A stretch of DNA of 64,000 nt. Origin: Thiocapsa bogorovii. Its GTDB lineage: Bacteria; Pseudomonadota; Gammaproteobacteria; Chromatiales; Chromatiaceae. Position 1 is the stretch's first letter. Every line of letters begins with the position of its first letter. The notes below the pieces were generated by a model, which saw only the letters and a program-made list of their open reading frames with translations, was not told the origin of the DNA and searched no databases. Below, in pieces: positions 3,128 through 53,075 of this stretch. Position numbers and translations under genes: made by a program. The stretch spans positions 3,100,001 to 3,164,000 of the forward strand of contig NZ_CP089309.1 of the NCBI RefSeq assembly GCF_021228795.1, given 5' to 3'.

Positions 3128-4866
3128 CCACCTCCTTTCAGGGGATCGGTATCTCGACGAGCCGCTCCCTGGCACTTGGACCGGCCTTCGTGGACGGGCG
3201 CGGCGGCCGAAGCGTCTCGCAGTCCTCGATCGCGGCCGACGAGGTCGCCGCCGAGATCGAGCGTCTCGACTTGGCCGTCACGGCAGCGCGCCAGGCCTTG
3301 AAGGCTGTGCGCAACCAGATCCCGCGCCACACGCCGTTGAACATCGCCGAGTTCATCGACACTCACTTGTTGATGCTCGAGGATGCCGCCCTGGTCGACG
3401 AGGTGCGCCGCATCGTTTCCGACGAGCTCTGCAATGCCGAGTGGGCGTTGCAACGCCAACGCGACACGTTGGTCGCGATTTTCAACGAGATGGACGATCC
3501 CTATCTGCGTACGCGCCGCGACGATGTCGAGCATGTCGTACAGCAGATTCAGACCTTCCTGCAGGGCGCAATCGAGCAGAGCGAGCCCTCGGCCCAGGAT
3601 CTGGACGGTCGCGTCGTGGTGGCGCGCGACCTGACGCCCGCGGATGCGATCCTCCTGCACCATCGCGGTGCAGTCGCATTCGTGACCGAATTCGGCGGGC
3701 CCATGTCCCACACGGCCATTCTGGCGCGCAGTCTCGGGGTGCCCGCCGTGATGGGCATCCACAACATCACCCGCTACCTGCGCCAAGGCGAGCTCATCCT
3801 GGTGGACGGCGAGACCGGTACGGTCCTTGCCGATGCCGACCCACTCACCCTAACCTTTTTCCGCGGCCGGCTGCGCGCGGCAGAGGCCCGTCAGTTGCGT
3901 TTGCGCGGGCTGGTCGGACGCGCCTCCGTCACGCGCGACGGGGTCGACATCGATCTCCTCGCGAATCTCGAGCTTCCCGAAGACGTCGAGCTCGCGACTG
4001 CCAACGGAGCCAGCGGGGTCGGACTCTATCGCACCGAGTTCCTCTATATGAATCGCCGCGATCTCCCCGACGAGGAGGAGCATCTGGCGAACTATGCAGA
4101 GATCGTCGCAGGGCTCGGCGGGATCCCGGTGACCATTCGCACGTTGGACCTAGGGGTCGAAAAGCGCATCGAGACGGCCTCGGATCCGGGGCCCGGGGTC
4201 TCGAACCCCGCGCTCGGACTGCGCGCAATCCGCCTGTGCCTGAAGGAGCCCGACCTTTTTCGCCCGCAATTGCGGGCGATCCTGCGCGCCGCAGCGATCG
4301 GCCCGGTGCGGCTGATGTTGCCCCTCGTATCGAACGTCCATGAAGTGGATACGGTTCTCGCGCTGATCCGACAAATCAAGACTCAGCTCGACCGTGACGG
4401 GCTCGATTACGACCCGAACCTTCCGATCGGCGCCATGATCGAGGTGCCCGCCGCGGCCCTCTGCGCTCGAGCACTGGCCCGGCGTCTGGATTTTCTCTCG
4501 ATCGGGACCAACGACCTCATCCAGTACACGCTTGCGATCGACCGACTCGACGACGGCGTCAACTATCTGTTCGATCCCACCCATCCGGCCATCTTGCGGT
4601 TGGTGCGCATGACCATCGAGGCCGCGCGCGACCTGAACCGACCGGTCAGCATGTGCGGCGAGATGGCCGGCGATCCACGCTTCACCCGACTCCTTCTGGG
4701 AATCGGGCTACGTGAATTCAGCATGCAGCCGGGCGCCATCCTGGACGTCAAAGAGGTCGTGCTGCAGGCCGACACACGCGATCTGAAGCGCCGCACCGCC
4801 GCGCTTTTCGCGCGTCTAGACGACATGGATCCTGGCGCCTTGATCGACGAGCTCAACGCCGCTTAA
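3124..4866 (+). CDS. ptsI: Phosphoenolpyruvate-protein phosphotransferase (enzyme I)
   Basis: EI autophosphorylates from PEP and passes phosphate to HPr. The 580-residue protein has the HPr-binding N-terminal domain, the swivelling domain with GGPMSHTAIL (active His196), and the PEP-binding barrel with IGTNDLIQYTLAIDR and the catalytic cysteine in VSMCGEMAGD (Cys511). There is no N-terminal GAF domain, so this is PtsI-like rather than PtsP. ATG 3124 overlaps the HPr stop; longer upstream readings are out-of-frame artefacts. The TAA stop lies in the left end of a palindromic repeat. Confidence 0.94.
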   Translation: MTTSFQGIGISTSRSLALGPAFVDGRGGRSVSQSSIAADEVAAEIERLDLAVTAARQALKAVRNQIPRHTPLNIAEFIDTHLLMLEDAALVDEVRRIVSDELCNAEWALQRQRDTLVAIFNEMDDPYLRTRRDDVEHVVQQIQTFLQGAIEQSEPSAQDLDGRVVVARDLTPADAILLHHRGAVAFVTEFGGPMSHTAILARSLGVPAVMGIHNITRYLRQGELILVDGETGTVLADADPLTLTFFRGRLRAAEARQLRLRGLVGRASVTRDGVDIDLLANLELPEDVELATANGASGVGLYRTEFLYMNRRDLPDEEEHLANYAEIVAGLGGIPVTIRTLDLGVEKRIETASDPGPGVSNPALGLRAIRLCLKEPDLFRPQLRAILRAAAIGPVRLMLPLVSNVHEVDTVLALIRQIKTQLDRDGLDYDPNLPIGAMIEVPAAALCARALARRLDFLSIGTNDLIQYTLAIDRLDDGVNYLFDPTHPAILRLVRMTIEAARDLNRPVSMCGEMAGDPRFTRLLLGIGLREFSMQPGAILDVKEVVLQADTRDLKRRTAALFARLDDMDPGALIDELNAA

Positions 4867-5080
4867 ACCGCGCTTAAACCGCGTCCGACGGTCTAAATCG
4901 ATGTCGGCCTGAGCATGGCGCCCTTGAGTCCACTAAGGGTCTTATCCCTGACGCGGTTTAAGAAAAAGAAAACCCAAAAAACCTCTAAATTTCTTAAACC
5001 GCGCGGCGCCGACGGTGGTTGGCAGCTGTGAGGTCGCACAGACAAACAAAGCATGCAGGTCACGCCGAGCGCGGTTTAAG
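4863..5080. repeat. Palindromic element pair (type C + type B reversed)
   Basis: Two units, 4863-4961 and 4993-5080, separated by an A-rich spacer of about 31 bp. The first starts with a doubled terminus (TTAAACCGCG twice) and ends GACGCGGTTTAAG; the second runs TTAAACCGCGCGG to GCGCGGTTTAAG. The left end supplies the TAA of ptsI and the right end, on the other strand, the TAA of the phosphohexomutase, so the pair fills the gap between two convergent genes. Confidence 0.85.
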
Positions 5081-6563
5081 CACGCCAACTGGCGAGGATG
5101 TCCATGCAGATCCGGTTCATCTCCTCCGCGCGCTGCGGACTGTCCGCCTCGGTGTAGGCCCGCAGCTCAGGGGCGTTTCCCGATGGGCGCAGGTGTGCGA
5201 TCTCGCCGCTGGCGAAGGTGATCCTGAGACCGTCGGTGACATCCAGATCGGCGACCGGGCCGAAAGCGGCGCCGAACACGGACTGCGCCGCGGCCTTGTC
5301 CCCGGCCGGATCGCCGCGATGGATCTCGCCAAGATGCGCCCGAGCGATCTCGGTCGGAAAATCCTTCAGACGATCGCTCCAGGTGAAGCGGCGCGGGAGA
5401 TCGGCGGACAGGGCCGACACCGGTTTCCCCTGCTCCACGGCGGCCCGCAGGATGGCGATCGCGACCAAGACCGCGTCTCGTGTCGGCAAGGCCGGCAGGA
5501 TCCGGCCCTCCTGCTCGAGGTCGGTCGCGAGCAGGAAACCGCCGTTCGCCTCGTAGCCGACCACCCGGTCCAGTCCTCGGTCGACCAGATCCTGCATCCC
5601 TTCGATGACGAAGGGCGATCCGATACGGGTGCGCAGCACCGTCTCGAACCAGCCGGATCGCTCGACCGCCGTGTTGCTGCTCACGGGCGTCACCACCCCG
5701 CGGGCGCCGAGTTGATGTGCACACAGGATTCCGGCGATGTCCCCGCGCAACCAGTTTCCCGTCTCATCGCCGACCAGCGGACGGTCGCCGTCCCCGTCGG
5801 CCGAAACCAGGGCATCGAAGTTCCCCGTGGCGGCCCAGTCGCGCGCAAGCGCGACGTCGTTTGGGCGGATCGCTTCGGTATCGACAGGGACAAAGACCTC
5901 CGAGAATCCCAGCTGCGTCACACGTGCGCCGAGCCCTTCCAGCACATCGACATAAGCACCCCGAGCGACGCTCGAGTGCTCATAGACACCGACACGCAGG
6001 CCGTCCAGGCTGCCTGACGGGAAGAAGTTGAGATAGCGATCGAGGTAGTCGCGATAGGCAAGGGGATCCTCCTTGGGAAGCGCGGCGGACTGGTCTTCGA
6101 CGAAGGCGCCGGCCGCATCGAAGAGCGTTTCGGCGACCTGAAGCGGCTGTCCGCGGATGCCCTCCTCGTCGCGTTTGAGGACCTCGCCCGTCGGCAGATT
6201 GAACTTGATGCCGTTGCGATCGTCCGGAATGTGGCTGCCGGTGACCATCAAGCTCGGAGCACCGCGGGTCAGTCCCCAGGCGGCAACGGCCGGACTCGGG
6301 ATACGCCCCAGGTAGCGGGGTCGGCAGCCCAGATCCAGCGTCGCACGGGCGCAGGCGACCAGGATTCTGCTTGTGCTGGGTCTCAGATCGCCGCCCAAGC
6401 CGACCTCTGCATCCGGTGTGAGCCCCCCGCTCGCGCGAAGATAGCTGAGAAACCCGGCCGTATAGGCGTAGCACACCCGATCGGTCATCGCCTGCGCCAA
6501 TCCGCGGGCACCGCTGGTTCCGAACGCCACACCGCTCATGTTCATCAAATCGCCGATCTGCAT
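5076..6563 (-). CDS. Phosphohexomutase (phosphomannomutase/phosphoglucomutase family)
   Basis: Alpha-D-phosphohexomutase interconverting hexose 1- and 6-phosphates for polysaccharide or nucleotide-sugar synthesis. About 495 residues in four domains: catalytic phosphoserine loop TGSHIPDDRNG (Ser110), metal loop DGDGDRP at 256-262, sugar loop GYEANGGF at 336-343 and phosphate loop RPSGNAPELR near the C-terminus. The chosen ATG has GAGGAG five bases upstream; an in-frame ATG fifteen bases earlier lacks one. The TAA stop is formed by the end of a palindromic repeat. Substrate preference (mannose, glucose or glucosamine) is not resolved. Convergent with ptsI. Confidence 0.88.
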   Translation of the reverse strand: MQIGDLMNMSGVAFGTSGARGLAQAMTDRVCYAYTAGFLSYLRASGGLTPDAEVGLGGDLRPSTSRILVACARATLDLGCRPRYLGRIPSPAVAAWGLTRGAPSLMVTGSHIPDDRNGIKFNLPTGEVLKRDEEGIRGQPLQVAETLFDAAGAFVEDQSAALPKEDPLAYRDYLDRYLNFFPSGSLDGLRVGVYEHSSVARGAYVDVLEGLGARVTQLGFSEVFVPVDTEAIRPNDVALARDWAATGNFDALVSADGDGDRPLVGDETGNWLRGDIAGILCAHQLGARGVVTPVSSNTAVERSGWFETVLRTRIGSPFVIEGMQDLVDRGLDRVVGYEANGGFLLATDLEQEGRILPALPTRDAVLVAIAILRAAVEQGKPVSALSADLPRRFTWSDRLKDFPTEIARAHLGEIHRGDPAGDKAAAQSVFGAAFGPVADLDVTDGLRITFASGEIAHLRPSGNAPELRAYTEADSPQRAEEMNRICMDILASWRA

Positions 6564-8602: not shown

Positions 8603-8645
8603 CGTAGCGGGTACCGGGGCCGAAGCCGCCGTTTCCGGACGCGGT

Positions 8646-12168: not shown

Positions 12169-12360
12169 CTAAACCGCGTCCAGAGCGAGATGCTGAATTT
12201 CGAGTGAACTCGACGTTTGATGCCCCCATGTCCCTTTGCGCGATACGGATTAAGCTTTTTATTTCTCAATACATTAAACCGCGCGGACTCCAGCGGCCGT
12301 CAAGTTTGCCAGGGCCAATCCCATCCAAAAGCATCGCATACCGCGCTGGGCGCGGTTTAA
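12169..12360. repeat. Palindromic element pair (type A + type B reversed)
   Basis: Unit 12169-12254 starts CTAAACCGCGTCCAGAGCG and has a decayed right end (GGATTAAG); unit 12273-12360 runs TTAAACCGCGCGG to GGGCGCGGTTTAA. An A/T-rich spacer of about 18 bp lies between. The right end supplies the TAA of ubiI on the minus strand. Confidence 0.82.
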
Positions 12361-13619
12361 ATCGGACGCGCCAGCGGCGGCAGGTCGCTCCCTAGACCGA
12401 GCGCACGCTCCATGAAGAGCGCCTTGATGGGGCCGATTCGGTCGGTCAAGGTCAATCCCAGGCTGCGTGCCGCAGCCAAAGGCGGGACGTCGTTGCTGAA
12501 GGTGCGCTTGATCAGGTCCATGGCGGCGAGCATGGCGGTGTTGTCGCCGCGACGCGCCCGCTCGTAATGGCGCAGCGCCCACAGACCGGCGATGTCGCGT
12601 CCCCGTTCCAGCGCGAGATCGATCGCCGCGGCCAGCTCGGCGGCGTCGAGGAACCCCAGGTTCACGCCCTGTCCGGCGAGCGGATGGACCGCATGGGCGG
12701 CATCGCCGACCAGGGCCAACCCGGGCAGGACGTACTGCTTGGCATGCTGGAGCCGCAGCGGAAAGGCTGCGCGCGGGCCCTCGACGACGAGCGCACCGAG
12801 CCGCGCCTCGGAGGCATCCGTCAGGGCGGCCGAGAAGGCGGCATCGCCCATCGCCAGCAACTCGGCGGCACGCTCTTCGGTGGCGGACCACACGATCGAG
12901 CAGCGCCCGTCCGCCAGCGGCAGCAATGCCAGCGGTCCGGTCGGCAGGAAGCGCTGCCAAGCGGTCTCTTGGTGCCATTCCTGCGGTCGGACGTTGGCTA
13001 CGATCGCCCGCTGGTCGTAGTCCCGGCCTTCGGTCTCGATGCCCGAGAGCTCGCGCACCAGGGAATCACGCCCGTCCGCGGCGACCAGCAGGCGACCCGC
13101 AATGACCTGCCCGTCACCGAGCACCACCCGCGACTCGGTCTCCGTGCGTTCGATCTCGACGATGGATGCGGGGCAGACGAGCCGGATGTCGGGTGAGGAC
13201 TCGAGCGTCTCCCACAGCGCGAGCTGGATGACGCGGTTCTCGACGATGTGTCCGAGATCGGGTTCGCCGAGCGATTGGGCATCGAAATGGATGCTCCCGC
13301 CGCCGAGTGCATCCCAGACACACATCTTGCGATAGGGGTTGGCGCCGAGGGCCGCGATGCGCTCCCACGCGCCGAGGCGCGCGAGGATCCGCTGACTGGC
13401 CCGACTCAAGGCCGAGACACGCAAGTCGATCTCGCCCGCGGGCCAATCGCGCCGCGGTTCGCGGGTCTCGATGACCGCGATCTGCAGGCCTTTGCCGGAA
13501 CAGGCGCGGGCGAGCGCGGCCCCCACCATTCCGCCACCGACCACGACGAGATCGAACGCAGACCCCTCGGACGCAGTCGCTTCCGGCTCGATCGGCGACA
13601 GTAAATCAGCTTCGGGCAT
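12357..13619 (-). CDS. ubiI: UbiH/UbiF/VisC-family FAD hydroxylase, probably UbiI
   Basis: Flavoprotein monooxygenase of ubiquinone synthesis. N-terminal FAD dinucleotide motif VVVGGGMVGAALA, mid-domain LVAADGRDS, and the C-terminal family motif GDAAHAVHPLAGQGVNLGF. About 420 residues, with some 20 residues before the Rossmann fold. The order pepP-ubiH-this gene matches E. coli pepP-ubiH-ubiI, and a coq7 gene elsewhere in the window would cover C6 hydroxylation, so C5 hydroxylase UbiI is the best assignment. It overlaps ubiH by 14 bp. The stop codon is donated by a palindromic repeat. Confidence 0.88.
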   Translation of the reverse strand: MPEADLLSPIEPEATASEGSAFDLVVVGGGMVGAALARACSGKGLQIAVIETREPRRDWPAGEIDLRVSALSRASQRILARLGAWERIAALGANPYRKMCVWDALGGGSIHFDAQSLGEPDLGHIVENRVIQLALWETLESSPDIRLVCPASIVEIERTETESRVVLGDGQVIAGRLLVAADGRDSLVRELSGIETEGRDYDQRAIVANVRPQEWHQETAWQRFLPTGPLALLPLADGRCSIVWSATEERAAELLAMGDAAFSAALTDASEARLGALVVEGPRAAFPLRLQHAKQYVLPGLALVGDAAHAVHPLAGQGVNLGFLDAAELAAAIDLALERGRDIAGLWALRHYERARRGDNTAMLAAMDLIKRTFSNDVPPLAAARSLGLTLTDRIGPIKALFMERALGLGSDLPPLARPI

Positions 13620-14851: not shown

Positions 14852-15054
14852 TTTAAACCGCGCCCGGTGCGGTATGCGGTATGCGTGATGTGTTTGAGTG
14901 GTTTGGCCGCAGCAGCTCCGACGATTGTCGGAGCCGGCGCAGTTTAAAGTACTATAAAATATTAAATTCTAAACCGCGTCTCACCGAGATCGTGGACATC
15001 TCCAAAGCCAAACGCAAAATGAATATGACGCATGTCGCTCCGGACGCGGTTTAG
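14852..15054. repeat. Palindromic element pair (type B + type A reversed)
   Basis: Unit 14852-14948 runs TTTAAACCGCGCCCGG to GGCGCAGTTTAAAG and contains an inner hairpin (GCTCCGAC/GTCGGAGC). Unit 14969-15054 runs CTAAACCGCGTCTC to GGACGCGGTTTAG. The spacer is about 20 bp of A/T. The right end forms the TAA of pepP on the minus strand. Confidence 0.85.
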
Positions 15055-16358
15055 TTGTCCGCCATGAGGGATTCGATTGCATCGGGTTCCTTTGGTGCCG
15101 CAGCAGAGAGGATCTCGTTGCCCGACTCCGTGATCAGCACATCGTCCTCGATGCGGATCCCGATCTGTCGGAAGGGTTCGGGGATCGCATCCGAATCGGC
15201 CAGATAGAGTCCCGGTTCCACCGTCAACACCATTCCGGGTTCGAAGGGCCGCCACCCACCTCCTTGTTTATAGCTTCCGACGTCGTGGACATCCATCCCC
15301 AGCCAATGTCCGGTGCGGTGCATGTAGTAGGGCTTGTGCGCTTCGTCCTTGAGTAGCTTGGCGAGCTTGCCCTTGAGCACGCCGAGATGGATCAGGCCCT
15401 TGGTCAAGACCTTGACCGCTTCGTCGTGCGGCTCGTTCCAGAGATTGCCGGGCCTGGCCTTGGCGATCGCCGCCGTCTGAGCCTCGAGCACCAGCTCGTA
15501 GAGCTCGCGCTGGGGCGCACTGAAGCGCCCGTTCACGGGAAAGGTGCGGGTGATGTCGGAGGCATACCCCTCGAGCTCGCATCCGGCATCGATCAGGACG
15601 AGATCCCCGTCGCGCAGAGGCGCTCGGTTCTCGACATAATGCAGGGTGCAGGCATTGGCTCCGCCGCCGACGATGGGCGAGTAGGCCTGGTCGCGCGCAC
15701 CCGAAGCGGCGCAGACGTGGTGGAACTCGGTCTCGAGCCGCGACTCGTTCATGCCGGGCTCGCAGATCTGCATCAGCCGCCGGTGGGCCGCGGCCGAGAT
15801 CTCCGCGGCTCGGCGCATCTGTTTGATCTCGGACGTGCTCTTGCGCAGCCGCATCTCGTGCAGGACCGACTCGATGGTCACGAAGGTCTCGGGCGCGGAG
15901 GCACCGGCGCGGATGTTCGCGCGAACCCGGTTGATCCAGCCCATGACCCGAGCGTCGAGCGCCGCATCGCTGCCGATCGAAAAATACAGCCGCTCGCGAC
16001 CGTCGATCAGGGTCGGCATGACCGTATCGATCTCGCCCAGCGGATACGCCTGATCGGCCCCGAAATCCGCCGTCGCACCCTCGACACCGGCGCGCCGGCC
16101 ATCCCACTGCTCGCGCTCCGGATCGCGAGGTCGACAAAACAACACGTACTCGCCGTCTTTGCGTTTCGGCGCAATCACGGCAAAGGCCTCGGGTTCGGCA
16201 AAGCCGGTCAGGTAGACGAAGTCGCTATTCTGGCGAAAGGGGTAATGCACATCGCGGTTGCGCACGACCTCGCGCGCGGCCGGAACGATTGCGATGCCGT
16301 TCGGGCCGATCGCTTTAGCCAGGGCGCGGCGGCGTCGTTTGTACTCGGCCGCCGTCAT
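15051..16358 (-). CDS. pepP: Xaa-Pro aminopeptidase
   Basis: Metallopeptidase removing N-terminal residues before proline. The N-terminal AMP_N domain covers about residues 1-150; the C-terminal pita-bread fold has IDAGCE and SDITRTFPVNG (Asp ligands), HRTGHWLGMDVHD (His) and the two glutamate ligands in TVEPGLY and RIEDDVL. The 435-residue length is normal. It overlaps ygfB by four bases and continues the conserved ygfB-pepP-ubiH-ubiI order. The last codon and stop abut the palindromic repeat, which contributes the TAA. Confidence 0.94.
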   Translation of the reverse strand: MTAAEYKRRRRALAKAIGPNGIAIVPAAREVVRNRDVHYPFRQNSDFVYLTGFAEPEAFAVIAPKRKDGEYVLFCRPRDPEREQWDGRRAGVEGATADFGADQAYPLGEIDTVMPTLIDGRERLYFSIGSDAALDARVMGWINRVRANIRAGASAPETFVTIESVLHEMRLRKSTSEIKQMRRAAEISAAAHRRLMQICEPGMNESRLETEFHHVCAASGARDQAYSPIVGGGANACTLHYVENRAPLRDGDLVLIDAGCELEGYASDITRTFPVNGRFSAPQRELYELVLEAQTAAIAKARPGNLWNEPHDEAVKVLTKGLIHLGVLKGKLAKLLKDEAHKPYYMHRTGHWLGMDVHDVGSYKQGGGWRPFEPGMVLTVEPGLYLADSDAIPEPFRQIGIRIEDDVLITESGNEILSAAAPKEPDAIESLMADN

Positions 16359-17602: not shown

Positions 17603-17802
17603 TCTCAGACATCCCCTGCAGTGTCCGATCGTGGCCTGGGTATTTTCTTGAGCCTAATCGCTGCCCTGGGGACATAGAAGCGAGGCCGTTGTGCATGTCC
17701 GTCTTCGAGCGGGTAGCCTGAAGCCGAGCCGAGTGTTCCCACTTGAACCTCTTGGTTCAAGAACAAAAGGCCTGCAACGGCACAGGCGGGGGGTGTCCCT
17801 TC
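17603..17802 (+). ncRNA. ssrS: 6S RNA
   Basis: Lies between zapA and fau, the conserved place for ssrS. The 3' half contains the signature hairpin CTTGAACCTCTTGGTTCAAG followed by GCCTGCAACGGCAC, and the centre has TTGAGCC and GTGCATGTCCG blocks as in Pseudomonas and E. coli 6S RNA. The ends pair (GACATCCCC near 17608 with GGGGGTGTC near 17789). The RNA binds the sigma70 holoenzyme as a promoter mimic in stationary phase. Exact ends are estimated. Confidence 0.88.
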
Positions 17803-17812: not shown

Positions 17813-18472
17813 ATGACCCACCCGAAACATCTTCGCCAAGACTTGCGCGCGAGTCGGCGAGCATTGTGCCGCCAGACCCAGCGTGAGCATGCGCATCTCG
17901 TTGCTCGACTGCTTCGTCGCGAACATCGCTACCGACGCGCCCGCCGAATCGCGGCTTATTGGCCGGCCGACGGCGAGCTCGACCCAGGCCCCTTGCTGAA
18001 CGACGCACGCGAGGGCGGAAAAGCGGTCTATCTTCCGGTCTTGAGCGGAAGCATCGGGCACCGATCCAGCATCAAACTTCGCTTTGTGCGTTGGATCATC
18101 GGCGAGACGATGCGCTCGAATCGTTTCGGCATCCCCGAACCGACGCGGCGCGGCCGCCACATCCGCCCGGCTCGCCATCTCGACCTGATCCTGGTTCCGC
18201 TGGTGGGATTCGACAGCGCCTGCAATCGTATCGGCATGGGCGGCGGCTACTACGACCGCACCCTGGCCTATCTGAAGCCCCCGCGATCCTGGCGACGGCC
18301 CCGACTGATCGGTTTGGCCCATGAGTGCCAGCGCATCGAGAGGATCGAGCCTCACCCCTGGGATGTCCCGCTCGACGCCGTCGTGACCGAACGGCGAATC
18401 TATTTTAAATCGCGTTTAAATCGCGACCCGAGCGATAAATCGGGTGTGGAGATCCGCTCGGTTTCTTCTTGA
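17813..18472 (+). CDS. fau: 5-formyltetrahydrofolate cyclo-ligase with repeat-derived C-terminus
   Basis: Converts 5-formyl-THF to 5,10-methenyl-THF. Family motifs: basic N-terminus with KxxLRxxLRxxR-like spacing, LVPLVGFDSACNRIGMGGGYYDRTL, and the terminal DVPLDAVVTERRIYF, where most relatives end. The frame then continues about 22 residues (KSRLNRDP...VSS) that are encoded by a palindromic element starting at 18403. The TGA lies inside that element. The tail is unlikely to be part of the enzyme fold. Co-oriented with 6S RNA, as in other gammaproteobacteria. Confidence 0.92.
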   Translation: MTHPKHLRQDLRASRRALCRQTQREHAHLVARLLRREHRYRRARRIAAYWPADGELDPGPLLNDAREGGKAVYLPVLSGSIGHRSSIKLRFVRWIIGETMRSNRFGIPEPTRRGRHIRPARHLDLILVPLVGFDSACNRIGMGGGYYDRTLAYLKPPRSWRRPRLIGLAHECQRIERIEPHPWDVPLDAVVTERRIYFKSRLNRDPSDKSGVEIRSVSS

Positions 18473-18502
18473 GCCTGCCCCCTTTGCGCGGCGCGATTTA
18501 AA
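18403..18502 (+). repeat. Palindromic element, type C with TTTAAATCGCG ends
   Basis: Begins with a doubled TTTAAATCGCG and ends GGCGCGATTTAAA. The CC/GG of the common termini is replaced on both arms (AAATCGCG with CGCGATTT), so pairing is retained. It overlaps the 3' end of fau. Confidence 0.8.
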
Positions 18503-18578: not shown

Positions 18579-18767
18579 TTAAACCGCGCCCGGTGCAGTG
18601 TGCGTAATGAGTTGGAGTGAATTGGCCGCGCCAGCTCCGACCACCGTCGGAGCTGGCGCGGTTTAGATGGCCTTTTCATCATCTAAACCGCGCCCCGCCG
18701 AGTCCGTTGTTCGCGAAGATGCAGTGCTCATGCCGTAACCTCGCACATCACTCCGAGCGCGGTTTAG
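18579..18767. repeat. Palindromic element pair (type B + reversed unit)
   Basis: Unit 18579-18666 runs CTTAAACCGCGCCCGG to GGCGCGGTTTAG with an inner perfect hairpin (CGCCAGCTCCGAC and its complement); unit 18682-18767 runs TCTAAACCGCGCCCCG to GAGCGCGGTTTAG. Spacer about 15 bp. The second unit is read through by ilvA on the minus strand and supplies its last codons and stop. Confidence 0.84.
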
Positions 18768-20280
18768 ATCCGGCAAACAGCCGATAGGCCGGATTCTCGG
18801 TCTCTTCCCAGTACTGATAACCCAGGGTATCGAGCGCCTCGCGGAAGGCATCCGTTTCGTGCGGCGGAATCTGCGCGCCCATCAGGACCCGTCCGTAGGC
18901 AGCGCCGTGGTTGCGGTAGTGAAACAGGGTGATGTTCCAACGCTTCCCGAGGGCCGAGAGAAAATCCAGCAGCGCGCCCGGGCGCTCCGGAAACTCGAAC
19001 CGCACCAGCGTTTCGCTCTCGATCCCTTCGGCGTGCCCGCCCACCATGTATCGGATGTGCAGCTTCGCCGTCTCGTTCTCGGTCATGTCGAGCACGCCGA
19101 AGCCTTTCTCCACGAGGCGGCCGATCAGCTCGGCGCGTTCCTCGTCGGCGCGCGCTAGCTCGACACCGACGAAGACCTGCGCCCGTACCGCATCCGAATA
19201 GCGATAGTTGAACTCGGTGATCTGGCGCCGCCCGATCACGCGGCAGAAGGCCAGAAAGCTGCCGGGACGCTCGGGGATCTCGACGGCAAGCAGGGCTTCA
19301 CGCCGCTCGCCGAGCTCGGCCCGCTCGGCGATATGACGCAGTCGATCGAAGTTGACGTTGGCGCCGCTCTCGATCGCAATCAGATGCTCGCCCTTGATCT
19401 TGTGTGTCTCGACATACCGCTTCATGCCGGCAACCGCAAGCGCACCGGCCGGCTCGGCGATCCCGCGGGTGTCGTCGAAGATGTCTTTGACCGCGGCGCA
19501 GATCTCGTCGGTGCTTACGAGAACCACCTCGTCGACACGCTCTCGGGCGACGCGAAAGGTCTCCTCGCCGATGAGCTTCACGGCCACGCCGTCGGCGAAC
19601 AGTCCGACCTGGGCAAGCTCCACGCGCCGCCCCGCGGCGAGCGCCGCGTGCAGCGTGGGCGCATCCTGCGGCTCCACGCCGATGATGCGCACCTCCGGCA
19701 TCAGCCATTTGACGTAGGCCGCCACGCCCGCGATCAGTCCGCCGCCGCCCACCGGGACGAAGATCGCGTAGGGCGGGACCGGATGCTGGCGCAGGATCTC
19801 CATCCCGATCGTCCCCTGACCGGCAATGACGTCGGGGTCATCGAAGGGGTGCAGGAAGGTCAGTCCTTTCTCCTCGACCAAGGTCATCGCATGGGCAAAG
19901 GCCTCGTCGTAGGAGTCTCCATGCAGAACGGCCTTGCCGCCGAGACGACGCACCGCGCGTACCTTGATGGCCGGCGTTGTCCGCGGCATGACGATGGTGG
20001 CCGGCACCCCCAGCTTGGCTGCACCGAGCGCAACCCCTTGTGCGTGATTGCCTGCACTGGCCGCGATTACGCCGCGCGCGCGCACCTCCGGATCCAGATG
20101 GATCAGCTTGTTGTACGCCCCGCGCAGCTTGAACGAGAACACGGGCTGCAAGTCCTCGCGCTTGAGAAAGACCGCGTTGTCGAGCCGCGCGGAGAGCTGC
20201 GGCGCGTGAGTGAGGGGTGTCTCGTGCGCGACATCGTAGACGCGAGCACGCAGGATCCGTTCGATATAGGCGTCGGGCAT
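18748..20280 (-). CDS. ilvA: Threonine ammonia-lyase (biosynthetic) with repeat-derived tail
   Basis: PLP enzyme making 2-oxobutanoate for isoleucine synthesis. The catalytic lysine is in FSFKLRGAYNK (Lys51), the phosphate loop is GGGGLIAG, and two ACT-like regulatory domains fill roughly residues 325-500, so isoleucine feedback is expected. The family end YRLFAG is followed by six residues, SKPRSE, encoded by a palindromic element that also gives the TGA. The ATG is immediately preceded by another copy of the element (20281-20367), leaving CGCGGTTTAG where a ribosome site should be. Length 510. Confidence 0.94.
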   Translation of the reverse strand: MPDAYIERILRARVYDVAHETPLTHAPQLSARLDNAVFLKREDLQPVFSFKLRGAYNKLIHLDPEVRARGVIAASAGNHAQGVALGAAKLGVPATIVMPRTTPAIKVRAVRRLGGKAVLHGDSYDEAFAHAMTLVEEKGLTFLHPFDDPDVIAGQGTIGMEILRQHPVPPYAIFVPVGGGGLIAGVAAYVKWLMPEVRIIGVEPQDAPTLHAALAAGRRVELAQVGLFADGVAVKLIGEETFRVARERVDEVVLVSTDEICAAVKDIFDDTRGIAEPAGALAVAGMKRYVETHKIKGEHLIAIESGANVNFDRLRHIAERAELGERREALLAVEIPERPGSFLAFCRVIGRRQITEFNYRYSDAVRAQVFVGVELARADEERAELIGRLVEKGFGVLDMTENETAKLHIRYMVGGHAEGIESETLVRFEFPERPGALLDFLSALGKRWNITLFHYRNHGAAYGRVLMGAQIPPHETDAFREALDTLGYQYWEETENPAYRLFAGSKPRSE

Positions 20281-20367
20281 CTAAACCGCGTCCGGAGTGA
20301 TATGCATTGTTCTTGGATTGGAGTCGTGTTGAGTGAATACAGGAGCGTCGGAGCCGACGCGGTTTAG
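20281..20367 (+). repeat. Palindromic element, single type B unit
   Basis: Runs CTAAACCGCGTCCGGAG to GCCGACGCGGTTTAG. It abuts the start codon of ilvA with no spacer. It closely resembles the single unit after rpiA at 21485-21571 (shared TTCTTGGATTGGAG core). Confidence 0.85.
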
Positions 20368-20598
20368 AACTTCAAGAATACGAACCTTTATACCGTATCT
20401 CCACCGAGGGCCGGAGGGACACTCGGCATTGGACGCACTCGAAACGAAGCATCTCACTCTCAGCGCGGTGTCACGCCGGACGGATCTGTGGGGTTTCTGG
20501 GCTCTGGTATGATACTGCCGGAGCGGCAAAAGGGCAGGTTTTACCGATCCGCGCAAGGCACAACCAACGGTCGGCGCTGAGCCGACGGCGGCTGGAAG
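20368..20598. other. Intergenic segment upstream of ilvA
   Basis: About 230 bp between two palindromic elements. Nothing recognisable as a gene. A promoter for ilvA would have to lie here or within the single element, which would place the element in the ilvA leader. Confidence 0.4.
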
Positions 20599-20792
20599 CT
20601 AAACCGCGTCCAGCGCGAGATGCTCGTTTGCGAGCGTGTTCGACGATCGCTGCATCTACGGCCCTTAACGGGGACGCGGTTTGAAATAGTAAATTTTTTA
20701 ATCTCTTAAACCGCGCCGACTCCGGCGGCCGTCAAGCCTGCCGGGACCGATCCCATCCAAATACATCGCACGCCGCTCCGAGCGCGGTTTAA
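20599..20792. repeat. Palindromic element pair (type A + type B reversed)
   Basis: Unit 20599-20683 runs CTAAACCGCGTCCAGCGCG to GGGGACGCGGTTTGA; unit 20705-20792 runs CTTAAACCGCGCCGACTCC to GAGCGCGGTTTAA. The spacer is about 21 bp with a T6 run. The pair lies about 33 bp upstream of rpiA, so it is between promoter and gene or part of the promoter region. Confidence 0.84.
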
Positions 20793-20825
20793 CGCCTCAC
20801 ACTAGACCAACACACCGGAGTACAC

Positions 20826-21485
20826 ATGAACACACAAGACGCCATGAAAAAACAGGCCGCCGAGGCTGCACTTGCCTATGTCGAGGACGGCATTATCGGG
20901 GTCGGTACGGGCTCGACCGTGAATCACTTCATCGATGCGCTCGCCGGCATCAAGGGGCGCATCGAGGGTGCTGTGTCCAGCTCGGTCGCCTCGACCGAAC
21001 GACTCAAGGGGCACGGGATCCCGGTCTACGACCTCAACGCCGTCGGCGAGCTCTCGCTCTATGTCGACGGGGCGGACGAGTCCAACGCGCAGCTCCAGTT
21101 GATCAAGGGCGGCGGCGGTGCGCTCACCCGCGAAAAGATCGTCGCTGCGGCGAGCCGGCAGTTCGTCTGTATTGCCGACGAGAGCAAGCTGGTCAGAGTC
21201 CTGGGTGCCTTCCCGCTGCCTGTCGAGGTGATTCCGATGGCGCGCAGCTATGTTGCGCGTGAGCTGGTCCAACTGGGCGGTACCCCGGTCTGGCGCGACG
21301 GTTTCGTGACCGACAACGGCAACCTGATCCTGGACGTGCAGCATCTGGAGATCATGGAGCCCGCCAAACTGGAACAAACCATCAACAATATCGCGGGCGT
21401 GGTCACCGTCGGGATCTTTGCCCTGCGTCCGGCCGATGTGTTGATTTTGGGAACCCCGGGCGGGCCCAAGACGCTGCGGGCCTAA
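20826..21485 (+). CDS. rpiA: Ribose-5-phosphate isomerase A
   Basis: Interconverts ribose 5-phosphate and ribulose 5-phosphate in the pentose phosphate and Calvin cycles. Motifs: [11 protein letters not shown] near the N-terminus, YVDGADE (catalytic Asp), [12 protein letters not shown] and the lysine in ADESKLV. The 219-residue length is normal. The stop TAA is one base before a palindromic element. Neighbour of ilvA, divergently oriented, as in several gammaproteobacteria. Confidence 0.95.
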
Positions 21486-21571
21486 CTAAACCGCGTCCGG
21501 AGCGGCGTGAGTCGTTCTTGGATTGGAGCTGCCTCGGTCGGAACCTGGAAACTCCGAGCTGACGCGGTTTA
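21485..21571 (+). repeat. Palindromic element, single type B unit
   Basis: Runs ACTAAACCGCGTCCGGAGCG to GCTGACGCGGTTTAG, immediately after the rpiA stop codon. Confidence 0.85.
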
Positions 21572-21624
21572 GGATTCTGAAAGAGAACTTTATCTCGGAG
21601 TCAACAAGAGGAGAGGCGACCGCG

Positions 21625-22092
21625 ATGGCGCGCCAACGAAATCTGAAGTCGGCTCATGAACCCGAAGCGCCCGTATACGGGGAGGACCTCGTCGCTTGGG
21701 CGTTCGCGAATGCGCGCTTGTTGAGGGAAAGACGTTTCGACAGCCTGGACGTGGAGAACATCGCCGAGGAGCTGGAGGATATGGGAAGGAGTGAAAAACG
21801 TGCACTTGCGAGCCATCTGCGCGTCTTGCTCCTGCACCTCCTGACATGGCAAGAGCAACCGGCCAGACGCGGCCCTTCATGGCGGCGCTCGATCCGGAAC
21901 GCCCGTCAAGAGATCGAAGACATCCTCGCGGAGAGCCCGAGTCTTGCGCAGCGAATCCCCGAGATGATCGAGCAGGCGTACCCCAAGGCGTTGGAATCGG
22001 CGATCGACGAGACCGGCTTGCCTTCGAGCAGCTTTCCGCCTCGATGCCTCTTTCGACAGGATGAGCTTCTGAGCTCGGCCTTCTGGCCCTAA
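21625..22092 (+). CDS. DUF29 family protein
   Basis: A 155-residue DUF29 protein: YGEDLVAWAFANARLLRERRFDSLDVENIAEELEDMGRSEKRAL is characteristic, followed by the helical HLRVLLLHLLTWQ segment. Function is unknown; the family is patchy and often multicopy in cyanobacteria and Chromatiales. The ATG has GAGAGG seven bases upstream; the frame is open for 34 codons before it but enters the repeat. The TAA stop is the start of a palindromic element (CCC TAA ACC). Confidence 0.85.
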   Translation: MARQRNLKSAHEPEAPVYGEDLVAWAFANARLLRERRFDSLDVENIAEELEDMGRSEKRALASHLRVLLLHLLTWQEQPARRGPSWRRSIRNARQEIEDILAESPSLAQRIPEMIEQAYPKALESAIDETGLPSSSFPPRCLFRQDELLSSAFWP

Positions 22093-22242
22093 ACCGCGTC
22101 CAGAGCGACATGCGTCGTTTTTAGTGTGCGTTTGGCTTCGGAGATGTCCTCGCTCTCGGTGAGACGCGGTTTAGAATTTGATATTTTTTAATAGCTTGAA
22201 CCGCGCCAGCTCCGACGGTCGTCGGAGCTGGCGCGGTTCAAG
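22090..22242. repeat. Palindromic element pair: type A unit plus minimal perfect hairpin
   Basis: Unit 22090-22174 runs CTAAACCGCGTCCAGAGCG to GTGAGACGCGGTTTAG. After a 20-bp A/T spacer, 22195-22242 is a 22-bp perfect stem with a 4-base loop: CTTGAACCGCGCCAGCTCC and its complement. It looks like a type B unit reduced to its stem. The T-to-C change in TGAACC is matched by GGTTCA on the other arm. Confidence 0.85.
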
Positions 22243-22246
22243 CCAC

Positions 22247-22273
22247 AAAAAAACGGGGCCCGAAGGCCCCGTC
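22247..22273 (-). terminator. Rho-independent terminator of the porin gene
   Basis: On the minus strand CGGGGCC-TTCG-GGCCCCG forms a tight GC stem with a stable UUCG-type loop, followed by a run of seven T. It begins about 30 bp after the porin stop. Confidence 0.9.
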
Positions 22274-22301
22274 GTGCGTTCCATGCCAAGCCGATATCGG
22301 C

Positions 22302-23588
22302 TTAGAAGCTGTGCATCATACCCAGCGAGAAGCCGTCCCACTGCGCGCCGTTGATCACGTCCGCGTCGTCGCTGTCGACCTGCGTGTACAGCACGTAGGC
22401 CTTGGTCCGCTTGCTGAAGTTGTGATCGAAGCCGATCGCCCAGGTGTAATAATCGCCTTCAAGCGAATTCTTGAAGGTATCGACGTTGTCGAAGCTCGCT
22501 TCGAAGTCGTTGTCGTTGTTGCCGCTGCCGTACATGGCCTTGACCATGTTGTTGCCGAAGGCGTAGCCGGCTTGGACCTGCCACAGCTCCTTCTGCTCCG
22601 GAACAGGAAAACCGACGCCGCCATTCTGAGCCCACAATTGGCCGGCCGGGAGGTTGTCCTGATTCTCGTAGATGGCGGTCAACGTGAAGCCGTTCCAGTC
22701 GAGCAAGCCCAGACCGATACGCCACTTGCTGAAATCGTCGCCGACGAAGTTCGGGTTGGCGATCGGGTCACCCGTGACCGGATCGATGGCGATCGGGTCG
22801 CCGAGCAGGACCGTGGTGGAGTCCATATAGAGGTCGTTGCCCAACGCCTCGTAAGCGGCCGAGAGATAGAACGGGCCGTTGCTGTAGATACCGGCAATCG
22901 AGTAGCCTTCAGCGATGCTGTCGGCGAAGATATTTCCGTTCGACGAGATGACGGTCGAGCCGCCGCCCGCATGCACCGCACCCATCAGCTGGAAGCCTGC
23001 GAGGCTCGGGCTGATATAGGCAATCGCGTTATCCACACGCAGATCCTGGAAGCCGACAGTGCCGTTGTAGTCGGCCATGGTGTCGGAGAAGAGGTCCAGC
23101 TTGGCGGTGGAGATCTTCAGCGGGGTATCGTGACGGCCGACCAGGAAGGTACCCCAGTCGCCGGCCAGACCCAGGAAGCTGTTACGCATGGTCGGCGAGT
23201 TGTTGGCGCCGGTGGCGGCCAGTTGACGCGTCTCTTCGGTCATCTGGATGCCGAACTCGACTTGGTAGATCGCCTTCAGGCCGTTGCCGAGATCCTCGGA
23301 GCCCTTGATACCGATGCGGTTGGCGCGACCTTCGCCGGGGATGTAACCGCCGCCGTTCAAGCCCCAGCCCTGGAAGTTTTGATCGCGATCAGGGATCGGG
23401 GGGCGGGTCTGGAAACCGGTTTCGGGGTCAATGGTGCCGGGGAACACGGAGCCCTGGGAGATGACGTTGGTCACGTCGGCCCAGTCGATGGACATGTTCA
23501 GCTTGCCGTACAGGATAGCTTCGGCCATTGCGGCGCCCGGGGCGACCAGCGCGGCAGCGACCGCGAGGCTAAGGATCTTCTTGTTCAT
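22302..23588 (-). CDS. Outer-membrane porin (gram-negative general porin family)
   Basis: A 428-residue beta-barrel porin. The first 22 residues are a Sec signal (MNKKILSLAVAAALVAPGAAMA). The mature part starts EAILYGKLNMSIDW, shows alternating amphipathic strands and ends in phenylalanine (LGMMHSF), the Bam recognition signal. An acidic loop carries 'DPIAIDPVTGDPI'. GGAGAAG precedes the ATG; the longer frame upstream has no signal peptide. A strong promoter and a clear terminator flank it, so it is monocistronic and probably abundant. Solute specificity is unknown. Confidence 0.9.
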   Translation of the reverse strand: MNKKILSLAVAAALVAPGAAMAEAILYGKLNMSIDWADVTNVISQGSVFPGTIDPETGFQTRPPIPDRDQNFQGWGLNGGGYIPGEGRANRIGIKGSEDLGNGLKAIYQVEFGIQMTEETRQLAATGANNSPTMRNSFLGLAGDWGTFLVGRHDTPLKISTAKLDLFSDTMADYNGTVGFQDLRVDNAIAYISPSLAGFQLMGAVHAGGGSTVISSNGNIFADSIAEGYSIAGIYSNGPFYLSAAYEALGNDLYMDSTTVLLGDPIAIDPVTGDPIANPNFVGDDFSKWRIGLGLLDWNGFTLTAIYENQDNLPAGQLWAQNGGVGFPVPEQKELWQVQAGYAFGNNMVKAMYGSGNNDNDFEASFDNVDTFKNSLEGDYYTWAIGFDHNFSKRTKAYVLYTQVDSDDADVINGAQWDGFSLGMMHSF

Positions 23589-32438: not shown

Positions 32439-32636
32439 GTTAAAACGCGCTCTTCGGTTTCTGCGAGGTTTTCATGTGGGGTTGACCTTATCAGGCTCAT
32501 TGATCGCCGGTGCGGCGCGTTTTAAGTGATTATTTTTTATTCTTTAAACATCCTAAACCGCGTCTCGCCAGCCCGCTGGTGGACTTCGGCGTTGACGTCG
32601 CCGCCGAGACCAGTTGTCGGGATGGAGGCGGTTTAG
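32439..32636. repeat. Palindromic element pair between trpG and trpD
   Basis: Unit 32439-32526 runs GTTAAAACGCGCTC to CGGCGCGTTTTAAG; both arms share the C-to-A/G-to-T change (AAAACGCG with CGCGTTTT). Unit 32551-32636 runs CCTAAACCGCGTCTCG to GAGGCGGTTTAG. Spacer about 25 bp of A/T. It separates trpG from trpD inside what would otherwise be a single operon. Confidence 0.82.
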
Positions 32637-36293: not shown

Positions 36294-36382
36294 CCTAAAC
36301 CGCGTCGACTCAAAGCGCTGTGGGACGCTCGGACGTATCGACCAAACTCGAGTCCAGACCTTAACCCCGGACGCGGTTCAGC
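36294..36382. repeat. Palindromic element, single unit
   Basis: Runs CTAAACCGCGTCGACTC to CCGGACGCGGTTCAG, with an inner GACTC...GAGTC match. The right end gives the TGA of rpe on the minus strand. It separates rpe from gph. Confidence 0.82.
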
Positions 36383-37061
36383 GCGCCATCTGCTCGCGCA
36401 TCTCCCGGATAATGCTGTCGTAGCGATGCGGATCGCTCTCGCGGCCCTTTCCGAAGATCCCTGAGCCGGAGACGAAGGTGTCCGCGCCAGCCGCCTTGAT
36501 CTCGCCGATGTTGTCCGCCTTCACGCCGCCGTCGATCTCGAGCCGGATGTCGAATCCGGAGGCATCGATCCTCTTGCGCGCCGCACGCAGCTTTTCCAGG
36601 GTCGCCGGGATGAAGCTCTGACCGCCGAAACCGGGGTTGACCGACATCAGGAGGATCATGTCGATCTTGTCCATCACGTAGTCGAGATAGCTCAGCGACG
36701 TCGCCGGGTTGAACACCAGACCGGCCTTGCAGCCCTCGTTGCGGATCAACTGAAGGGTGCGGTCGATGTGTTCGCTCGCCTCCGGGTGGAAGGTGATATA
36801 GGTCGCGCCTGCGGCGGCGAAGTCCGGGATGATCCGATCGACCGGCTTGACCATCAGATGCACGTCGATCGGCGCCGTCACGCCATGCTTGCGCAGCGCC
36901 TCGCAGACCAGCGGACCGATGGTGAGGTTCGGCACGTAATGGTTGTCCATCACGTCGAAGTGCACGATGTCCGCGCCGGCGGCGAGGACGTTGTCGACCT
37001 CTTCGCCGAGCCGGGCGAAATCTGCCGAGAGGATGGACGGTGCGATCAGATCAGGCGTCAT
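36378..37061 (-). CDS. rpe: Ribulose-phosphate 3-epimerase
   Basis: Interconverts ribulose 5-phosphate and xylulose 5-phosphate. Motifs: [43 protein letters not shown] and [11 protein letters not shown]. 227 residues. In the Calvin cycle it works with the rpiA product in this window. Stop codon TGA supplied by the end of a palindromic element. Confidence 0.96.
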
Positions 37062-39808: not shown

Positions 39809-40729
39809 ATGGCCAGACCTCTGCGGCTTGAGTTTTCCGGTGCGCTCTGTCATGTCACGTTGCGAGGGAACGAGCGCTGCAGCATCTTTCTCGGAGAAGT
39901 CGACAAGGTCCGGGCGGCGTTACTCGACGTCGTTGCGGGGACCTGTAAGCGCTTCAGCTGGATCTGCCATGCCTATTGCTTCATGTCCGACCACCACCCC
40001 TTGTTGGTGGAGATGCCAGATGCCGCTCCGTCGAAGGTCATGCGACAGCTGAACGGCATCTATACCCAGCACGTCAACCCCACCCACGGCCGTGTCCGCC
40101 ATCTCTTTCAGGGGAGATTCAAAGCCATATTGGTCGAGCGGGAAAGCTACCTGCTGGAACTGGCCAGCTACGCGGTACTGAACTTGGTTCGGGCCGGGAT
40201 GGTGCGAACCCCCGGCGAGTGGCCCTGGAGCGGCTACCTGGCGACGGCCGGGGAAACGCCAGCCCCAGAGTTCGTGGCCACAGATCGGCTGTTGCGGGCG
40301 TTCGCCGAGACCCGGGACGATGCGGTTGTTCGGTACCGACGGTTTGTCGCCGAAGGGATCGGCGCCGCTGGTCGTCGGATGGACTTTAAAGGCCAGATCT
40401 ACCTAGGTTCCGAGCCTTTCGTCGCACTCGTGCAGGCGTTGATCGATCCCAACCGACAGTTGCAGGAAATCCCGAAATGCCAGCTGCGCGCGCAGCCGCA
40501 ACCCTTGGACGAATACGTCTCATGCTACCCGGATCGAGAACGCCCGCTTGCCGAAGCCTAACGCACGGGAGCTTACAGCATGCAGACACTGGCGGAGCAT
40601 TGCGGCATCAGTCGCATGACTGTGAGTCGGGCGGTGCGATACAACGAGCGGACCTCCATTGGCCCGGATGCCACATGCAGTGGCTCGATGGGTTTTGGCT
40701 CACCGATCGATCTCGATAACGGGGAATAG
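39809..40729 (+). pseudogene. REP-associated tyrosine transposase (RAYT), degraded
   Basis: Y1/TnpA-REP family: MARPLRLEFSGALCHVTLRGN, RQLNGIYTQHVN and GRVRHLFQGRFKAI are diagnostic. The catalytic HUH motif, normally NHYHLL, reads DHHPLL (residues 61-66), losing the second histidine. The presumed catalytic tyrosine is kept (Tyr121 in ASYAVLNLVRAG), but NPVRA has become NLVRA. The frame stops with TAA at 40559-40561 and then continues in the same frame into a good C-terminal helix-turn-helix (GAYSMQTLAEHCGISRMTVSRAV) until TAG 40727-40729. It therefore has at least a nonsense mutation and a damaged active site. It is a candidate relic of the machinery for the palindromic repeats, though a link is unproven. 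Confidence 0.8.
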
Positions 40730-45774: not shown

Positions 45775-45936
45775 GCCTCGACCGGTTGGCTCGGCTCAGT
45801 CCGCTTCCACGAAATCTGCACGATTGCTGCTCAGCTCCTGCACCCTCGTCACCTAACCTACAGTGGGTCGGGGATCGACTCGACATCGCATCGGGACCCT
45901 CCCGAGACGCAACGAAGACATCAAAGGTGACGCATT

Positions 45937-46494
45937 ATGAATACAGGCAACAGCTTTGGCATCGCAGCCTTGGCAATAGCCGTCACGGCACTTTTCGCCA
46001 CCACCTCGGCCTTCGCCGAACCAGGCGGCCACGGCCAGGAGCCAAGCGCGTTCGCGAGCCAACGCATGGAACGGATGACCCGAACCCTGGATCTGACACC
46101 CGAGCAGCAGACCGAGATCCGAACCATCCTGGAGGAGCAACGCGCACGGGAGCTGCAAGAGCGCCAGGACCTGCAAGCACGTATCGACGCCGTTCTCACG
46201 TCCGAACAACGCGAGCGCATCGAGGAGCAGCGCGAGACCCGGATTAAAAAACGTCTCGATGGGCTCGCCGAGCGACTCGACCTGAGCGAGGATCAGGTCG
46301 CCCAAGTACGCTCCATCATGGCGACCGATAACGACGACTCGGGCATGACCCGAGACGAGATCAGAGAGCAGATCAAGACCGTCCTGACGGAGGATCAGCT
46401 CAAGCGGTTCGAGGCCCGCGGACCGGGTTCCAAGCGCGGAGCCTCGGGTGAACCCTGTGAGTCGGGCAAGACGGGCAGCGGGCCGGAGTCCTGA
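45937..46494 (+). CDS. Periplasmic Spy/CpxP-like LTxxQ protein
   Basis: A 185-residue exported protein. Signal peptide of about 27 residues (cut near SAFA-EP), then four LTxxQ-type motifs: LTPEQQ, LTSEQR, LSEDQV and LTEDQL, in a highly charged helical domain. This is the Spy/CpxP chaperone family, expressed under envelope stress. It stands right after baeSR and is therefore probably a member of that regulon. The C-terminus is a Gly/Ser-rich tail with one cysteine. Confidence 0.82.
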   Translation: MNTGNSFGIAALAIAVTALFATTSAFAEPGGHGQEPSAFASQRMERMTRTLDLTPEQQTEIRTILEEQRARELQERQDLQARIDAVLTSEQRERIEEQRETRIKKRLDGLAERLDLSEDQVAQVRSIMATDNDDSGMTRDEIREQIKTVLTEDQLKRFEARGPGSKRGASGEPCESGKTGSGPES

Positions 46495-52878: not shown

Positions 52879-52879
52879 A

Positions 52880-53075
52880 CCTAAACCGCGCACGGCGCCG
52901 TATGTGGTGTTTTTGGATAGGAACAGCCTTGGCAAACTCGACGATCGTTGGAGGTGGCGCGGTTTAAAGTTCTAAAAAATATCGACTTTTAAACTGCGTC
53001 TCCACCAGAGATGGTGAAATCCCCAAGGCCGAATACAACGTGAAGATGACGAATGTCGCTCTGGACGCGGTTTAG
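52880..53075. repeat. Palindromic element pair (type B + type A reversed)
   Basis: Unit 52880-52968 runs CCTAAACCGCGCACGG to GGTGGCGCGGTTTAAAG; unit 52989-53075 runs TTTTAAACTGCGTCTCC to CTGGACGCGGTTTAG. Spacer about 20 bp. The right end supplies the TAA of the retropepsin-like gene; the left is adjacent to the ggt stop. It fills the convergent gap. Confidence 0.85.

Follow-up and report, generated by a model that had tools for sequence, protein, structure and literature searches.

The stretch of Thiocapsa bogorovii DNA analysed here, called the window below, comprises 64,000 nucleotides (G000:C1:3100001-3164000, G000 being the organism's own complete genome of 5,649,927 bases) and carries a family of short palindromic units with conserved arms. 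A first-pass annotation, made from the letters alone, had listed 23 such units of 85-100 bp. One covariance model matches all 23 positions; its 46 training units were taken from the own genome and include 19 window units, which match by construction. A further weak match lies at 20392-20469 (E 0.0018). The units are real, but their length is mostly 82-86 bp. The window contains the arm sequence TAAACCGCG 18 times and CGCGGTTTA 13 times, compared with 0-2 times in each of 20 order-1 Markov sequences. Several units deviate from the standard form: that at 14852 is 93 bp long, that at 22195 has an internal deletion which leaves only 44 bp, those at 12169 and 25430 each have one badly decayed arm, those at 14852, 20599, 32551, 36294 and 52989 have one arm mismatch each, and the left end of those at 4863 and 18403 is duplicated by 11 bp. 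Joint changes in both arms, pointed out earlier for the units at 18403, 22195, 28058 and 32439, are present as described. The gap reported between 37 and 52 kb exists in the window, where the model has no match from 36.4 to 52.8 kb, but it does not characterise the region as such, since a close relative, G004, carries pairs at the places matching 45.7 and 48.7 kb.

Paired hairpins in Chromatiaceae genomes

The usual mobile form of the element is a pair of about 193 bp, in which two hairpins of about 85 bp lie with their heads outward on either side of an AT-rich linker of 22-23 bp (84 % AT). A sample of 2.5 Mb of DNA yielded 502 distinct units. Where neighbouring units were strongly oriented, 111 of 114 were head-out, and 103 of 142 neighbour spacings measured 22-23 bp. 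After setting aside the 22 of 127 head-out pairs with an untyped unit, a B or C unit was joined to an A or D unit in 104 of 105. A DNA search with window positions 20000-23500 returned many recurrences of the query segments at about 600-793 and 2090-2247, without their flanks. The elements have the features of a miniature inverted-repeat transposable element (MITE), being short (the 193-bp pair), multicopy (166 strict units and 126 head-out pairs) and bounded by terminal inverted repeats, both outer ends starting with TAAACCGCGYCC. Near-identical pairs in genome G028 point to recent spread.

A pair in one species is represented by a single unit in another at two sites (window 4864 and G000:C1:3301770, each compared with G004). 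For many single units the probable origin is a pair that underwent a deletion between its repeated ends, a direction of change that we infer. Unit heads without a partner were seen in 40 of 501 cases in the sampled DNA and are, by eye, mostly decayed units or chance matches; one of them, in locus L133, is the end of an insertion sequence (IS) and led to the parent IS described below. Two 82-bp single elements in genome G126 (C33:50373-50454 and C39:144839-144920) have both halves resembling IS ends, and such elements are a possible minimal ancestor of one unit.

Confinement of the family to the window, which the first-pass annotation had named as a refuting result, does not hold: the own genome contains 166 copies of the strict pattern, compared with none of a reversed-pattern control, and relaxed units number 50 in 394 kb. 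The strict pattern was found in 28 of 210 genomes of the order, representing 10 of 61 genera. Within Thiocapsa, eight of the 11 genomes are positive, with 100 to 515 copies each, the maximum occurring in a congener. The covariance model gave 8, 25 and 1 matches, respectively, in the three others (G005, G009 and G006; E 0.01, strands counted apart); the lone match in G006 possibly represents the end of the IS. The 80 listed stretches of the at least 120 found in a pattern scan come from Thiocapsa, Thiobaca, Lamprocystis, Thiocystis and metagenome-assembled genomes titled Chromatiaceae; these genera are members of that family. No match to the units was obtained in viral contigs. By our own gene calls, units make up 7-13 % of the intergenic DNA in four compared regions. 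The window units are members of a large, non-autonomous element family found in Chromatiaceae; their positions are collected in the table.

Palindromic elements in the window (positions from its first base; + and - give the strand of the adjoining gene)
Feature	Position	Units	Basis	Ends on stop codons and state elsewhere
Pair	4864-5078	4864/4875-4960; 4995-5078	arm patterns, covariance model	left end, stop of + gene ending 4866; right end, stop of - gene with 3' end 5076; second unit missing in G004
Pair	12170-12359	12170-12252 (right arm decayed); 12275-12359	arm patterns, covariance model	right end, stop of - gene 12357-13619
Pair	14854-15053	14854-14946 (8-bp internal duplication); 14970-15053	covariance model, orthologues	right end, stop of - gene 15051-16358; D-C pair in G000, G004, G010, G002, G003; B-A pair in G001; none in G008
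Single unit	18406-18500	arms TAAATCGCG/CGCGATTTA; duplicated left end	arm patterns, covariance model	
Pair	18580-18766	18580-18665; 18684-18766	arm patterns, covariance model	second unit, TAA/TGA compensatory change vs G004
Single unit	20282-20366		covariance model	same site occupied in six congeners
Complete pair	20600-20791	B forward, A reverse	covariance model	recurs entire many times in own genome and congeners, mostly 80-86 % identity
Single unit	21487-21571		arm patterns, covariance model	
Pair	22090-22240	C unit; 44-bp internally deleted unit (22197-22240)	covariance model	left end, stop of + gene ending 22092; recurs in congeners as ~157-bp element
Pair	25324-25518	second unit decayed	covariance model, orthologues	element-free in G010, G002, G008; single unit in G003
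Single unit	28059-28141	arms TGAACCGCG/CGCGGTTCA	covariance model	left end, stop of + gene ending 28061; TAA form in G010, G002
Two units	32441-32635	32441-32524 (TAAAACGCG/CGCGTTTTA); 32554-32635	covariance model, orthologues	32554-32635 is TAAATCGCG/CGCGATTTA in G002
Single unit	36296-36380		covariance model, orthologues	right end, stop of - gene 36378-37061
Pair	52882-53074	A forward, C reverse	covariance model, orthologues	right end, stop of - gene with 3' end 53072

The differing content of site 14854-15053 across congeners reflects replacement or repeated insertion. Tandem duplication of left ends in 11-bp steps is visible at 4864-4883 and 18406-18425, with one step more at the latter site in G004 (L031 18597-18640). 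In the orthologues of 4864, 28058, 32439 and 52880 (G001, G004, G010, G002), the gaps are shared with other repeats: some are GTCGTT arrays, others are bounded by GATTTCCGG..CCGGAAATCGCC ends, and others again contain TAGGATGGGTAGAGC. Gathering-score Rfam matches in the window are restricted to 6S RNA (17610-17796, + strand) and a tRNA (24081-24151, - strand), none being to a unit. The element-free stretch contains an open reading frame with a Y1_Tnp (RAYT-like) domain at 39809-40561 on the + strand.

Target site and source transposon

The outer flanks of 126 pairs revealed a distinct target. The base before the TA was C in 62, T in 63 and A in one (a pyrimidine, Y, in 125 of 126), and that following it was A in 64, G in 57, C in three and T in two (a purine, R, in 121 of 126); a comparable bias was absent at all other flank positions. 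The two sides vary independently (CA 33, TA 31, TG 29, CG 27), which excludes duplication of the four nucleotides YTAR. Longer direct duplications were observed 12 times for 2 bp (7.6 expected), twice for 3 bp (2.4), twice for 4 bp (0.5) and twice for 7 bp (0.07). Judged from these flanks, the pattern is that of insertion at YTAR with doubling of the TA.

Empty sites were sought by joining the flanks of 194 islands of four genomes, with one TA kept, and aligning them to other genomes. Near-gapless alignment was obtained for 15 islands; the junction contained TA in ten of these, followed by R in nine of the ten. The pair at 259097-259290 in G010, for example, corresponds to ..GGTC-TAG-CATAG.. 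in G000, and that at 45909-46101 in G001 to ..GGGC-TAA-GTCC.. in G010 (joined-region coordinates).

Among 50 IS630 (DDE_3) loci scanned for ends, one in G006 was flanked by TAAACCGAGCCTAGCCCGAGATACGTAATTTT and TAAACCCCGCCCAGAGCGGGATACGTAATTTT. Its transposase matches NCBIfam NF033545 (IS630, 3e-45) and Pfam PF13358 and PF13592, and homologues at E 1e-25 are present in 12 of the 210 genomes, G006 included, the others being 59-88 % identical. Seven two-ended IS copies, three of them in G196, measure 1274-1277 bp and have TAAACC.CGYCYAG..CGGGATRCGTARTTTT at both ends; the base preceding TA is a pyrimidine at every listed IS end. When the consensus of the type C head is set against six of the IS ends, 22-27 of 32 positions agree, compared with a mean of 9.8 for 538 free YTAR sites, among which the highest value, 27, was reached by one site. 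By these resemblances, the source of the elements is an IS630-family insertion sequence with ends of about 32 bp that match the unit heads. The first-pass suggestion of a non-autonomous mobile element is thereby borne out: orthologous sites occur both filled and empty, the target TA is duplicated, and a parent IS shares the ends of the elements.

Units occur together with a transposase homologue in G098, which has 31 strict copies and an intact transposase frame, and in G100, which has 80 and a broken one, while the other genomes with at least 20 strict copies have no transposase homologue at E 1e-25. As so few genomes hold both, mobilisation in trans is something we infer rather than observe. 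A DDE_3 gene beside a unit in G042 (L126) was considered as a parent and, by eye, lacks a matching end on the gene side; it was taken as a neighbour. A fragment in G007 (L135) seemed bounded by similar ends, which do not match. The parent IS in G006 (L133/L297, G006:C159) adjoins the 3' end of an open frame of 456 codons, whose stop codon TAA it provides.

Stop codons and conservation of the hairpin

The body of the element starts with A after TA, so that insertion into a TAA or a TAG always restores an in-frame TAA. Contact with stop codons was determined in four regions of together about 390 kb (G000, G004, G010, G001), where the end of an island coincides exactly with a called gene's stop codon in 91 of 194 cases. 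Of the YTAR sites at stop codons 31 % are occupied (204 further ones are free), compared with 10 % of other intergenic sites (101/986) and 0.2 % of coding sites (2/827). The odds ratio for stop versus other intergenic sites is 3.9, with the qualification that the genomes share insertions and the counts are not independent; taken separately, each genome has 23-48 % of its stop sites filled versus 8-16 % of the others. The bias persists when the gaps are split by gene orientation: the shares are 38 % and 17 % in convergent gaps, 31 % and 10 % in tandem ones. In the 120 pattern-scan loci, which were chosen for holding a copy and partly reuse the same genomes, 78 of 162 islands lie on stops. In the window, 7 of 14 islands end a gene, that at 4864-5078 doing so at both ends, and by a cruder open-frame test (at least 80 codons) the same applies to 11 of the 20 G028 loci that carry young copies. 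In all eight near-gapless cases in which a filled copy ends a gene, the gene of the empty orthologue ends at the same place, which shows that those genes were not truncated.

The stem of the units changes more slowly than its surroundings. In 155 orthologous comparisons, retained after 31 of 186 had been dropped for an interior differing by more than 30 % (the element possibly being replaced), divergence was 3.6 % in the 9-bp arms, 14.2 % in the interior and 11.3 % in the flanks. A neutral simulation that starts from perfect arms and includes the detection filter predicts an arm divergence of 10.5-12 %. The 1628 compared base pairs comprise 69 one-sided changes (27 to G-U, 42 broken) and 11 two-sided ones; all 11 are Watson-Crick pairs, while independence predicts 1.3 double changes. 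These 11 stem from about five or six sites in reciprocal comparisons and are not independent events, and one (G010 125517) is located in a poor alignment. Position 10, which lies outside the detection pattern, covaries in the 46 units (23 U-A, 22 C-G, 1 other), in part following unit type. The low arm divergence and the pairing-restoring nature of all 11 double changes argue that the hairpin is under selection, and from these alignments the end-to-end hairpin appears to have been kept intact after insertion. The earlier proposal that matching changes preserve a hairpin is upheld by these orthologous comparisons, and the arm pairs do covary.

Before the 31 comparisons were dropped, arm divergence was alike for units in contact with stops (3.1 %) and others (4.1 %). 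In the same set of 186, A3 and G7 were the most constrained positions of the stem and A2 the most variable (9 %); after an A-to-G change at A2 the codon is still a stop (TAA/TGA), and the base pair can persist. In transcript orientation GU mismatches outnumber AC mismatches by 28 to 15, events that are not independent and are not used as proof; the excess is a hint of selection at the RNA level.

A selected hairpin at the ends of genes could act as a weak terminator in both directions or block 3' exonucleases, so that a role in termination or mRNA protection may be proposed. The first-pass idea of a terminator or structured RNA is kept here as a possibility: the RNAalifold consensus retains the terminal stem only, with no inner structure, and a terminator scan of 20 kb yielded 17 hits, near the background of 14.2 expected (sd 4.7). 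Against a classical terminator, the stem is followed only by TTTA at the outer ends. The linker has a run of at least five T, confined to one strand, in 47 of 57 pairs, and in the linkers inspected this run lies about 10 nt past the stem. When six units were folded singly, z-scores were -2.4 to -4.2 in five and -1.6 in one; the unit at 18580, one of the five, favours an inner hairpin over the terminal stem.

Competing explanations and known systems

Taken together, the units are very probably MITEs derived from a Chromatiaceae insertion sequence of the IS630 (Tc1/mariner) type; about half of the copies lie on stop codons, and the stem is conserved. The sequences show insertion at Y-TA-R in the pattern of a TA duplication and the rebuilding of a stop codon as TAA; the IS transposase would have mobilised the pairs in trans. 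Copies at gene 3' ends would have been kept as they are harmless there and as the transcribed hairpin may be of help, acting as a weak terminator or as a barrier to 3' exonucleases.

A number of observations weigh against this explanation. Of the 11 Thiocapsa genomes, the own one included, 10 lack a close transposase at E 1e-25; their best matches have 26-28 % identity, next to a 40 % relic in G001. The exception, G006, bears the IS but has no strict copies. By sequence alone, TA duplication is indistinguishable from insertion of a body ending in TA; five of the 15 near-gapless empty sites have a junction without TA, and at site 25322 there is a difference of 11 bp, more than a duplicated TA by itself can account for. 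The rule that joins B or C to A or D units, when read from base 10 in the four regions, is obeyed by 57 of 74 two-unit islands and violated by 17. The gene calls behind the stop-codon counts come from a home-made hexamer finder. Finally, copies of the parent IS are not enriched at stops (5 of 25, some one-ended, versus 20 % of random YTAA in the open-frame test), and the stop-codon habit is for this reason read as probably the outcome of retention, perhaps with a benefit, rather than of targeting.

The elements could be purely selfish MITEs, their arms kept alike by quasi-palindrome correction at the DNA level and their stop bias reflecting tolerance without host benefit. With 2 of 194 insertions in coding sequence purging is strong, and correction yields double changes without selection; by our own argument, though, it should not reduce the rate per site, and the arms diverge by 3.6 % instead of the 10.5-12 % expected neutrally, while one-sided changes (69) exceed double ones (11). 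We regard this account as less likely than the one given above. Similarly tentative is a further-reaching reading, a 3'-end system supplied by a transposon, in which the elements, their terminal base making insertion into stop codons silent, have taken a quarter to half of the eligible stops (YTAA/YTAG) in the sampled regions and the host relies on the hairpin, through RNA-level selection, for the ends or protection of its mRNAs.

Two other origins were weighed. Inverted pairs with a short linker look like BIMEs, that is, REP-like repeats dispersed by a REP-associated tyrosine transposase (RAYT; Y1, IS200-like), and Y1_Tnp genes occur in each of the 11 Thiocapsa genomes (4-19 matches each). 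Six of 30 examined Y1 loci, a subset of the Y1 matches, contain a unit, but at 992-1333 bp from the Y1 match, so that units do not flank the Y1 gene in these 30; such genes are also present in congeners without strict copies (14 in G005, 4 in G006, 4 in G009), and the YTAR/TA pattern and IS630 ends fit the data better. On the 30 Y1 loci examined and these patterns, dispersal by RAYT was rejected as scarcely credible. In five Thiocapsa genomes (L011, L015, L017, L027, L029), an 84-bp unit lies 1315-1333 bp from a Y1 match, perhaps at one orthologous site. Vertically inherited bidirectional intrinsic terminators that never moved would accord with the many units at shared orthologous sites (186 comparisons), with the layout of A-tract, GC stem and T-tract at gene ends, and with an excess between convergent genes in G000, where 13 of 39 islands lie in such gaps, compared with 37 of 258 gaps being convergent. 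As a full account this is refuted by the empty sites, by the different pairs that species carry at site 14853, by strict copy numbers of 0-515 within one genus and by IS ends at the unit heads; it is very unlikely, although old single units may be such terminators.

Several known systems resemble the IS630-derived MITEs described here. RUP of pneumococcus, a 107-bp element linked to IS630-Spn1, shares the IS630-type ends, the TA target, strong secondary structure and enrichment between convergent genes (PMC2229807; PMC3049150). It is one element, whereas the present ones consist of two hairpins of different classes and an AT-rich linker, and the portions of both papers available to us make no mention of stop-codon insertion for RUP. 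MITEPlu5 of Photorhabdus, with 467 complete copies in TT01, also has a terminal TA that is both target and duplication, similarity to IS630-type ends and strong secondary structure (PMC6267812). As described in part there, it differs in being a 123-bp single element with other termini, of CCC type. It is presumably to be grouped with ERIC. Correia/NEMIS elements of Neisseria are likewise small, with terminal TA, terminal repeats and base-paired transcripts (PMC2229807), a likeness by description and not by sequence; they have another host and, in the excerpt, 107- and 155-bp forms. The target of MITEPsy1 of Pseudomonas syringae, CTAG or YTAA, is nearly identical to YTAR (PMC3189936), but that element is given in the available text as IS5-like with a 4-nt duplication, whereas here TA alone can be doubled. 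SPRITE of pneumococcus is a hairpin repeat near gene 3' ends and was proposed to be a co-opted terminator; unlike the present units it is an 18-bp duplex with a U-rich tract, and no IS630 link is mentioned in the portion of PMC3049150 at hand.

Title and abstract searches found no description of the family among the matches listed, subscription journals being mostly outside their coverage, and the available part of the T. bogorovii genome paper (PMC10892978) does not mention it. In TA duplication, ends, size and number, the elements are of an already known kind, IS630-derived MITEs. For the two-hairpin layout, the YTAR and stop-codon habit with its rebuilt stop, and the measured conservation of the stem, no earlier description was found among the same matches. 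Beyond the palindromes first noted, the usual unit is an inverted pair, the ends often coincide with stop codons, and the source transposon is named, which opens mobilisation to assay. In conclusion, the family is a clear case of a transposon whose copies can number in the hundreds even in a compact genome, the cost staying low because the stop codon it enters is rebuilt, and which would then have been held in place by selection on its hairpin. Congeners of roughly 80-95 % identity, with sites that are filled, empty or replaced, provide a natural experiment on the domestication of mobile DNA at gene 3' ends.

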